Positions 45,797 through 53,492 of a DNA stretch of 64,000 nucleotides are shown one piece after another. Origin of the DNA: Rhizophlyctis rosea (lineage: Eukaryota; Chytridiomycota; Chytridiomycetes; Rhizophlyctidales; Rhizophlyctidaceae); assembly GCA_027596075.1 (NCBI GenBank), contig JADGJC010000128.1, forward strand, positions 44,502 through 108,501. The letters are read 5' to 3'. Under the pieces are notes generated by a model that worked only from the letters and a program-made list of their open reading frames with translations, was not told where the DNA came from and searched no databases. How positions within the stretch are numbered: the first letter of the stretch is position 1; every line of letters starts with the position of its first letter. Made by a program: the position numbers and the translations under genes.

Positions 45797-49529
<3,733 letters not shown>

Positions 49530-49909: not shown

Positions 49910-50454
49910 ATGAAAGTCAACATCAAAAGTAGGTAGCTCACGAAGCCATAATGTCTGATACCTCAATTGACTAACTTTTGGTGCCCAGAGTAAGCCATAA
50001 CCCGATCGCTCATATAAAGAAGATTTCAACCCTCTTCCTACGCTCACACTTATCTTGAATCTATTTTTCTTCTCACCCACAGATGGACGGCCGTAGCAGC
50101 CTGGAAATGGACCATCGAAAACGACGAAACCGACTGCGGAATCTGTCGTGCACCTTTTGAGGCTTGCTGTCCGAAATGCACTACGCCTGGTGACGATTGC
50201 CCGCCGGGTAAGCCTATCTTTAGAACGTTTTCCTTTCAATAACGGCCACCACGTACGCCCGTTTCAAACTTTGGCATACTGAAATACCCTTCGTCGTACC
50301 CACAGCGACGGGAGAATGCAGCCACGTCTTCCACATGCACTGCATCGAGACGTGGGTTCAGCAGGAAGCGTCGCAGGGGCGTTGCCCGCTGGACCGCCGG
50401 CCGTGGGTCGTGGCGAGTCTTGAAGAGGGGCGGAGAAGGGGAGCACTGTTGTAA
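49910..50454 (+). CDS. APC11: APC11, RING-H2 subunit of the anaphase-promoting complex, with 1-nt exon
   Basis: Exons: 49910-49928, 49989 (one nucleotide), 50083-50207, 50306-50454. The joined start reads MKVNIKKWTAVAAWKW, the almost invariant APC11 N-terminus; RING ligands follow in CGICRAPF, CCPKC, CSHVFHMHC and CPLD. Total 99 residues, slightly longer than usual (84-90) owing to the C-terminal tail. APC11 is the catalytic RING partner of APC2 in the ubiquitin ligase that triggers anaphase and mitotic exit. The last RING ligand is Asp (CPLDRRPW), as in RBX1, instead of the CPMC usual in APC11. Without the single-nucleotide exon the frame hits a stop after a few codons. The main alternative is a weak donor at 49933, which inserts one residue (MKVNIKSRW). 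Confidence 0.92.
49989..49989 (+). other. APC11: Single-nucleotide exon of APC11
   Basis: The A at 49989 is preceded by a TTGACTAAC branch site and GTGCCCAG acceptor (ending 49988) and followed by the donor GTAAGC (from 49990). Exon 1 ends with one base of a Lys codon (A, 49928) and exon 3 begins with the last base (A, 50083). The three As make AAA (Lys), giving IKKW as in other APC11 proteins. Introns are 60 and 93 nt, typical for this window. Confidence 0.8.
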
Positions 50455-50835: not shown

Positions 50836-53492
50836 TCATAGCCCCAAATCCTCAACCACCACCTCCCCCTTGCCCTCTCTCTCCCCATCTCTCACCACTC
50901 CACACTTCTCCAACCCCTCCCACGGATCTCTTCCTCCACCCCACTTGAACAACTCCTCCTTCACCACCTCCCCTGGCCAGCCACCCCCCCCCCCCCCCCA
51001 AGCCGCACAACCAAGCCCCCACCACCGACCCCCCCCACCCCCCGCAAACAAAATAGATATATAAAGGGCCNNNNNNNNNNCCTCAAACAATGCCCTCCAC
51101 AACCTCCCCGCCCACCTCCGACTCCAAAGATACGTATAATACGTGCCCCCATACGCAACCAAATGTCCAAACTGCACCTGCCACGCTGTCCCTTCCGGAA
51201 ACGGAATTACATTCACCCGATTCTGGAGATCCTTCAACACCTTGGTACTATCGAACCCTTCTGCGGTTGCTAGCTCTGAGTGGTAGAGTTGATCGAGTAA
51301 GGCCATTTGGATCTGACTTTGAAGTTCGAGAGCTTTGAACGTTTGGGTTGCGTGGGCGTCACGATGGGACCGAATGGCTGCGGCGGAGAGTGGTTCGTTG
51401 GTTTTATGGTGGCGGGCGAATGTGGAGAGGAAGTCTGGGTTTGTGGCAAAGTGTTCGGTGAAGATTGAGGGTACTTCGACAAAGTCCATTTGGACGCGAG
51501 TTCCCGCAATGTGTTGAAAGTCTGTGCGGGCGAGCATGGCTAAAAGGATGTAAACATTGGCGTTAGCTTTCCCAATCGCCAAGTAAATAAACAAACAAAG
51601 AAACTCACAATGCATCGCATGCCCCATCTCATGAAACAGAGTCTTCACTTCCTCCAAACTCAACAGTGTCGTCCCATCTTCAACAGGCCTGGCAAAATCC
51701 GTAACCAAAACCACAATCGGCAATTGCTTCAACCCTCTCTCCGTCTTCTTCTCCCCATCCGGATTTCTCAACAATTTCCCTCCACCCCCCGGAACACCAG
51801 CAACCTCCTCCATCTCCTCTTTCGTAATCAACCTTGAACACCGCACTGTAAAATGCGCCGCAGTATCATACTTCCTCTCCCCTCCCCGTCTCTGCAACAA
51901 ATCACAATATATGGTCCCAATCCTTCCTTCCGTCTCATGCACGACATCAAGTTTACGGACTTCGTCGTGCCATGTCTCGCCCGCGAGTGTGGTGGAGGGT
52001 TCGAAGCGGATGCCGTAGAGTGCGGTGAAGAGTGAGGAAAGACCTTCGAAGGTTCCTCCGATGGTGAAGTAGGGGATGAGTGATGTGGATGCGGAATCTT
52101 CTGCTTGTGGTGTATGGAGGGGATCGGCGGACAGCGATGTGGTGATGGGGGCTGAGGGTGATATGAAGCGAGTGTAAAAGTTTTGGTCCCATGCTTCGAT
52201 CCGGGCATTTGGATCATTGGTGTGAGTTCGTTTGAGGTTTCGTAGGATGGAGACGTCGGCTTCTGCAATTGGTCGATGAGACTTTGCGCAAGATTCTAGG
52301 AAGCGCATGACGTGATCTGTTCATATTTATGATGTTTATTATTCCCTCCAGGTTCGAATCCACGATAAGTCCATGGGCCCATTTCGTTACCTTGGCTTTG
52401 GACCATCTTATCTCGAAGCGTCATATCTGCATAACTCCGTTTGCCCAACATGGTAGCCAGCTCTCCTCGCGTTCGTAATAGCTCCTCCAAAATCAATAAT
52501 TGACGGGGACTGCCAGAATTCATGGCCAAATACATGGCCCTCCGACTCTCCTCCGCCTGCGCTAGTCTCAACACGGTATATGCCGCCATTGACCCAGTTG
52601 GTACATCGGCAGTGTCTTTACCATCGCCTTTGCCGCCTCGCTTCCCGTTGTGGGTCACTTGCTGTATCAGTTTGAGCGGCAGACCGTTCAAGGTTTGTGT
52701 TGGGTTCTGGAACTTGACTTTGTCCACGTGCGGATAGCTGACTTCCGCAAACGCCTGACCTAAACCGAGAATGCGATCGTTGAGATCAACAAAGCGTGCA
52801 CGAGTGGATTCTGGCATATGAACTCCGGATTTCTCGAAATCAGATATCAGGAGCTCCGCAACTGCACGTTCTTCACGAGAGAGGGATTTGCCTATGGTGG
52901 GGTGGTCCAGGACACGTTTTAGCGCCTTTTTTTCAAGAGTCAGAGTTTGATGTTCCTAATTGGATATTCATTCAAACACAACAGTTCGCACCTCATATAA
53001 GCCTGGGTGTGTATTGAGCTGACTAAGAAGACTTGTCAACTCAGCAACAGCCTTCTCAGCAGCTCTGACATACTCTCGGCTTGGGTGTACATTCCGAAGG
53101 AATTCCGCCAGGTCTACTACGGAACACAATACATCGCTCAGTCGGTCCAGACGTCGCACAGTTTTGCGAATTTCGTTATCCGTGCGAGCAGCACAAACCG
53201 CTTCAACGATGCGGGTGGCTTCCTCCAAGGCTGCGAGAGCGGCGTCCACTAGGCCTGACGGTTTGGACAGCTGTGGGTAGCCGAAGAGACCGGTGGATGA
53301 GGATGTGCGGACGTTTTCGGAGGAGGTGGAAGTGTCGAACAACTTTCTAAGGGAGTTGGGAAGTACGGTGCTGTACGAGCGCCTGCTAATTACAGGTCTT
53401 CGTGATGCATTGCCGCGAGCATTGGTTGTTGAGGGCACCCTCTGCTTGAAAGGTGCTTGTACCGAGCAACGGCAGCACCTGTATTTGTGCAT
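50836..53492 (-). CDS. OCT1: Mitochondrial intermediate peptidase (octapeptidyl aminopeptidase), interrupted by assembly gap
   Basis: Starts at ATG 53492 with a basic presequence (SRRPVISRRSYSTVLPNSLRKLF). M3-family peptidase sequence follows: GLFGYPQLSKPSGLVDAALA, LSDVLCSVVDLAEFLRN, VHMPESTRARFVDLNDRI, PIVVLVTDFARP, and the zinc site FHEMGHAMHSMLARTDFQH (HExxH; an intron splits HAMH/SML), VEVPSIFTEHF, and WQVQFGHLVAYGGTYYTYLWS. MIP cuts an octapeptide from many matrix precursors after MPP. The coding sequence is broken by 10 Ns at 51071-51080 and a 16-C run; on the far side EELFKWGGGRDPWEGL up to stop 50836 matches the family C-terminus. One intron ends in AAG (exon from 52925). The open frame extends to 53522 but without ATG. 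Confidence 0.88.
50984..50999. repeat. Poly-C run (16 nt)
   Basis: A 16-base C homopolymer in a C-rich tract next to the assembly gap. It is probably a sequencing obstacle and its length is unreliable. Confidence 0.8.
51071..51080. other. Assembly gap (10 N)
   Basis: Ten Ns inside the MIP gene near its C-terminal coding sequence. The true size of the gap is unknown. Confidence 0.99.

Follow-up and report, generated by a model that had tools for sequence, protein, structure and literature searches.

A candidate one-nucleotide exon in the APC11 gene of the chytrid Rhizophlyctis rosea

The APC11 locus

A 64,000-nucleotide stretch of the Rhizophlyctis rosea genome (contig JADGJC010000128.1, positions 44,502 to 108,501; hereafter the window) carries the gene for APC11, a core cell-division protein and RING-H2 subunit of the APC/C, on the forward strand at 49910-50454, downstream of MCM3, which lies on the same strand and was spliced by hand from 45797 on. 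The genome, described in the first-pass annotation as fungus-like, is that of a true chytrid, a soil fungus of the order Rhizophlyctidales. Six matches to the APC11 RING family were found in the genome: two are the APC11 exons in the window and four are weaker and lie elsewhere, among them C281, which is RBX1. Neither Rfam, at gathering scores, nor a tRNA scan matched anything in the window. A long poly-C run followed by a 10-N assembly gap (51071-51080) occupies 50984-51080, some 500-600 bases downstream of APC11.

The features of the locus are listed in Table 1. Every letter and coordinate that the first-pass annotation gave for the start of the gene was checked base by base and is present. 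Direct joining of 49928 to 50083 breaks the frame, as that annotation had proposed, yielding MKVNIKNGRP and then a stop, and retention of intron 2 gives MKVNIKK followed by a stop. Inclusion of the single A at 49989 does produce the predicted start, MKVNIKKW, and with it an APC11 protein of 97 residues. GT-AG routes with one or two introns, each no shorter than 35 nt, were enumerated exhaustively between the ATG and the Trp codon at 50084, and four of them are in frame: MKVNIKKW through the one-nucleotide exon, MKVNIKSRW through a donor at 49933, and two routes with 21 and 22 extra residues. The eight-residue start is reached by the first of these alone.

Table 1. Features of the R. rosea APC11 locus in window coordinates
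Feature	Position	Strand	Description
Exon 1	49910-49928	+	19 nt, ATGAAAGTCAACATCAAAA; closes with the first base of codon 7 (phase 1); encodes MKVNIK, in agreement with the start of family members
Intron 1 (predicted)	49929-49988	+	60 nt, GTAGGT...CCCAG; donor 4.42 bits, acceptor 3.43 bits
Branch-like motif of intron 1	49967-49975	+	TTGACTAAC; candidate branch A at 49974
Candidate one-nucleotide exon (A)	49989	+	Middle base of codon 7 (AAA, Lys); only in-frame GT-AG route with an eight-residue start
Intron 2 (predicted)	49990-50082	+	93 nt, GTAAGC...CACCCACAG; donor 4.86 bits, acceptor 7.82 bits (CAG 50080-50082)
Exon 3	50083-50207	+	125 nt; third base of codon 7, then Trp8 (codon at 50084); first part of the RING-H2 domain
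Intron 3	50208-50305	+	98 nt, GTAAGC...CCACAG; ordinary
Exon 4	50306-50454	+	Remainder of the RING-H2 domain and stop codon
Alternative single intron	49933-50082	+	150 nt, GTAGCT...CAG; gives MKVNIKSRW

The arrangement CAG-A-GTAAGC at 49986-49995 thus has one lone base separating its 3' splice site from its 5' splice site, both of them weak. The first AG 3' of the branch-like motif TTGACTAAC is the CAG at 49986-49988, and CTAAC-like motifs at a comparable distance were seen in several of the checked introns of this genome; the CTAAC motif and the lack of any earlier AG before 49988 would favour use of this acceptor. A zero-nucleotide recursive (ratchet) splice point was considered and rejected because one base, the A, separates the AG from the GT. 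The zf-ANAPC11 domain scores 97.8 bits in the protein with the one-nucleotide exon and 97.7 bits in the protein made from the 49933 donor, against a curated cut-off of 25, and since both pass, the domain is neutral between the models.

No R. rosea protein was among the nine hits of a single-sequence search, though the database holds R. rosea proteins, including one from the same contig, and the species name is likewise absent from the best 120 of 1934 profile matches. The search depends on shared short words and similar length, and the missing hit is therefore a weak sign, one that fits APC11 having been overlooked or mis-modelled by prediction programs. Pattern searches for APC11 loci of relatives gave eight matches in viral_contigs and 33 in genome_contigs, none of which is a relative. 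The neighbouring MCM3 differs at 45797-46165 from its database model P0123 (R. rosea; 100% identical across 93% of the query), which opens with MLSTGERR and leaves out exon 1. A 258-nt intron at 45908-46165 restores the stretch EF[LM]D..YG....K..IRKM, which is kept in 9 of the 10 MCM3 orthologues P0124-P0133, P0130 being without the YG part.

Family spacing, splice sites and chance expectation

The N-terminal spacing of the family was examined in 122 homologous proteins, obtained by combining the nine single-sequence hits with the best 120 of the 1934 profile hits (8000 candidates scored); as the best-scoring share of the hits they are a biased sample, mostly of basidiomycetes, with none named as a chytrid. 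In 121 of them a Met stands exactly 11 residues ahead of the A.W.[WC] core; this Met is the annotated start in 111 cases, the annotated protein beginning further upstream in the other 10. The one remaining homologue, P0082 (start MPLAKIHIKRW), has Ala at that residue and keeps the spacing from KIHIKRW on. P0082 is a cluster of 15 members (source jgi) in which MPLAKIHIKRW takes the place of MKxxIKxW, possibly through a first exon mis-modelled at this same position.

Among the four in-frame routes, only that through the one-nucleotide exon places the start 11 residues from the AxWxW core. The description of MKVNIKSRW as one residue longer than the family norm is upheld: the extra residue occurs in none of the 122 homologues, nor in yeast APC11, human APC11 or the RBX1 of R. 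rosea itself. Yeast and human APC11, for which structures have been solved, align at the N-terminal start without a gap, and RBX1, the paralogue in the same genome, reads FEVKKWNAVALWAW, a gap-free alignment to VNIKKWTAVAAWKW. Scored against a profile built from the 122 homologues, all trimmed to start at the residue 11 positions ahead of the core, the protein with the one-nucleotide exon reaches 121.8 bits and that from the 49933 donor 117.3, a difference of 4.5 bits.

Splice-site strength and intron length were judged against 39 introns of this genome whose ends are set by conserved protein sequence and frame. They are drawn from few, conserved genes: 10 introns of MCM3, one of APC11 (intron 3), four of RBX1 and three of VPS55 were placed by eye (18 in all), while five of actin and 16 of tubulin-like genes were placed by a spliced aligner knowing GT-AG only. 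Thirty-eight of the 39 are 55-100 nt long, the exception being the 258-nt intron of MCM3, so that the two introns flanking the candidate exon (60 and 93 nt) lie within the common range whereas the 150 nt required by the 49933 donor exceeds all but one. At donor position +5, G is found in 34/39 and C in 1/39; both donors of the one-nucleotide model have G there, and the 49933 donor has C.

With a matrix built from these 39 introns the donors at 49929, 49990 and 49933 score 4.42, 4.86 and 4.20 bits, and the acceptors at 49988 and 50082 score 3.43 and 7.82 bits, the latter at or above 38/39 checked acceptors. All three donors and the acceptor at 49988 are weak, with 6/39 true sites (leave-one-out) as low in each case. 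The claim that the A is enclosed by a complete acceptor and donor is fair as a statement about motifs, the sites scoring 3.43 bits for the acceptor and 4.86 bits for the donor. The designation of 49933 as the weaker alternative stands on spacing and intron length and needs correction on donor score, where 4.20 against 4.42 bits does not make it clearly weaker. Donor strength had been expected to decide between the models, but 4.4 and 4.2 bits do not separate them, because the 49933 donor gains at position -1 what its +5 base costs.

A self-trained gene finder (264 kb) was set aside as too noisy a source of splice statistics; it was run in two versions, with 56 and 61 introns. Their upper-quartile intron lengths were 193 and 154 nt, with G at +5 in 62% and 92% and C in 7% and 0%, the 62% and 7% coming from the version in which positions +4 to +6 were hidden from the model, and these figures are less favourable to the one-nucleotide reading on both intron length and +5. 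Four donors without G at +5 (GTACAA, GTAGTG, GTAAAC and GTTAAG) belong to one beta-tubulin-like gene, L040; outside it the only other among the 39 is GTAACC, in L039. The unusual donor GTAGGT of APC11 intron 1 is also used in RBX1 (L005, reverse strand, near 1962; TGGG|GTAGGT).

The chance of such an arrangement was estimated from 20000 dinucleotide shuffles of the intron interior, each scanned for an internal one-nucleotide exon flanked on either side by an intron of 45 nt or more. With both sites required to be at least as good as those observed, none of the 20000 shuffles contained such an exon together with a branch-like motif and five did so without the motif; when the summed score alone was required, the counts were nine with the motif and 26 without it. 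Applied in that order to real sequence, 528,000 strand-bases from the window and contig C223 with the site under study counted in, the same four criteria gave 3, 10, 10 and 46 cases, corresponding to 0.0004, 0.0013, 0.0013 and 0.006 expected exons in the 66 nt available.

Competing gene models and the predicted sequence of intron excision

Judged by reading frame, family spacing, intron length and chance level, the gene model with the one-nucleotide exon has the best support, and the coding sequence of APC11 is probably divided among four exons, of which the lone A at 49989 would be the second. The first-pass proposal of a one-nucleotide exon in this gene thus gains support on those four counts, while the inclusion of the exon and its constitutive use are what we infer from the DNA letters. 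Counted against the model are the weakness of both donors and of the internal acceptor, donor scores that do not favour it over 49933, and the existence of introns longer than 100 nt in this genome (MCM3, 258 nt). Single-nucleotide exons are very rare and the prior for one is low; in the weighing it was taken, as an estimate, to be about one per ten thousand to hundred thousand genes. By our own rough estimate, the profile difference, intron length and chance expectation multiplied together outweigh that prior by several to tens of times.

The rival that comes nearest is one ordinary intron from 49933 to 50082, with MKVNIKSRW as the start and the internal CAG-A-GTAAGC fortuitous. Its structure is simple and its prior high; it keeps the frame with one intron, from a donor about equal to that at 49929 into the strong acceptor at 50082, and its protein passes the zf-ANAPC11/RING cut-off equally well. 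It would nevertheless insert a residue found in none of the homologues, score 4.5 bits worse against the family profile, combine a length exceeded by one checked intron with a +5 base found in one, and require a coincidence of 0.0004-0.006, and we consider it unlikely. As the 49933 donor preserves the frame, a minor isoform, or a mixture alongside the one-nucleotide form, is possible.

Considerably less probable is an assembly or sequencing error that dropped one A of the AAAA run at 49925-49928; the normal start MKVNIKKW would then need just one intron, running from the GTAGGT donor to 50082. One added A does give the identical protein with one intron (154 nt in the present letters), and one wrong base would suffice, the other exons being open. 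The run is short at four bases, however; the intron would remain too long, and the internal one-nucleotide exon would remain a coincidence. In addition, about 7 kb of conserved coding sequence from MCM3, actin, three tubulin-like genes, RBX1 and, by eye, VPS55 in this genome could be read with no frameshift assumed, a point limited by an aligner that lacks a frameshift step and might present one as a gap or a spurious intron. Least probable of all, and very improbable, is a non-canonical intron, such as TA-AG or GT-CA, offset by a single base and joining exon 1 to Trp8 with eight residues. A one-base shift of either boundary would restore the frame, with AGA as the junction codon; against this, 39/39 checked introns are GT-AG, but that uniformity is built in, GT-AG having been sought or the introns so placed by eye.

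If the one-nucleotide exon is used, its single base gives the splicing machinery no room to hold both edges, and the two introns are therefore most likely removed sequentially, by recursive splicing. Intron 1, with its CTAAC branch and the first AG ending at 49988, would be removed first, joining the A at 49989 to exon 1. This would recreate a donor, AAA|GTAAGC, which could then be paired with the strong acceptor at 50082, giving the codon AAA (Lys7) ahead of Trp8 and a normal N-terminal strand. In the APC11 protein family this strand docks to the cullin-like subunit. Removal of intron 1 changes the second donor from AGA|GTAAGC at 4.86 bits to AAA|GTAAGC at 5.63 bits (6/39 true donors are as low as the former and 9/39 as low as the latter), and it is this gain in strength that makes the intron-1-first order attractive; the order itself may be taken as a prediction from the sites. 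For Arabidopsis, Guo and Liu suggested that recognition across a one-nucleotide exon is very unlikely and that the introns are possibly removed one by one (PMC4674806).

Origin of the intron site and known single-nucleotide exons

The RBX1 gene of R. rosea has a phase-0 intron (L005, reverse strand, 2075-1991) between Lys40 and Trp41 (FEVKK|W), matching Lys7/Trp8 of APC11. In coding-base numbering the two APC11 introns follow bases 19 and 20, and the RBX1 intron corresponds to base 21, so that the three occupy consecutive nucleotide positions. This proximity is suggestive of an old intron site that has been reshaped and is best treated as a lead; as proof of an old site the coincidence was rejected, the chance of an intron lying within 2 nt being about 6% (estimated for four introns in about 360 nt of RBX1). 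A plant microexon survey inferred that the APC11 exon arose in early plants and described most plant microexon clusters as common to moss but not to green algae (PMC8831610), which points, if either way, away from very ancient shared ancestry. The full reading is that the exon is real, constitutive and in the same codon as in land plants because introns have long sat at the boundary before the conserved Trp in the RBX1/APC11 family; it is held to be unlikely. If it were true, a repeatedly reshaped ancestral intron would have produced one-nucleotide exons in the same gene in two kingdoms.

If the exon itself is real, this would be a nuclear one-nucleotide exon in an early-branching fungus, in the same gene as in plants, and another fungal gene with such an exon after CYP621A of Fusarium. 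Gene models of APC11 in chytrids may then be absent or wrong, and the short introns of the locus would suit it to studying how a spliceosome deals with an exon too small to leave its partners room. Shared and repeated origin could also be told apart sharply by comparing where introns interrupt APC11 and RBX1 in different eukaryotes.

The constitutive one-nucleotide exon of Arabidopsis APC11 (At3g05870) that the first-pass annotation mentioned is indeed published, and its inclusion was proven with cDNA and reporter constructs (PMC4674806). The two cases have in common the gene, a single A between AG and GT, and a frame that depends on that A; in both, the A lies between the annotated first and second exons, and the likeness is stated at that level. 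They differ in their introns, the apparent intron of Arabidopsis being 422 nt with the A at 333 (about 332 + 89 nt) against 60 + 93 here, and in their evidence, with the cDNA and reporters on one side and DNA letters on the other (PMC4674806). In the plant survey, which deals with plants only, APC11 and VPS55 of land plants form a one-nucleotide microexon cluster, the APC11 exon being conserved, missed by annotations and present in most land plants; its authors inferred that this exon evolved early in the plant lineage, and of 45 microexon clusters they described 35 as common to moss and not to green algae (PMC8831610). VPS55, which carries a one-nucleotide exon in plants, was rejected as a second chytrid gene of this kind, having three ordinary introns in R. 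rosea.

Among the papers listed by the literature searches, one of which listed 20 of 330, no one-nucleotide exon in a fungal APC11 gene was found by title and abstract opening. The Fusarium CYP621A exon was called the first for a fungal gene in February 2026 and is supported by reads; according to the text available, its authors likewise took an over-long apparent intron as a hint (PMC12940212). It resembles the present candidate as a nuclear fungal one-nucleotide exon, sitting inside a length-constrained motif and within a seemingly over-long intron, and differs in being in an unrelated gene, in its base (G, in AGGGT) and in having orthologues and 18 reads behind it (PMC12940212). Mitochondrial genes also contain single-base exons, described in the accessible text for rnl of Ophiostoma and Ceratocystis, between group II introns, and for placozoan cox1; these are organelle genes, and the fungal rnl introns are group II rather than spliceosomal (PMC12308204, PMC7813641). 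One-nucleotide exons are therefore already known as a kind, from plant APC11 and Fusarium CYP621A, and what is new here is most likely the instance in a chytrid APC11.
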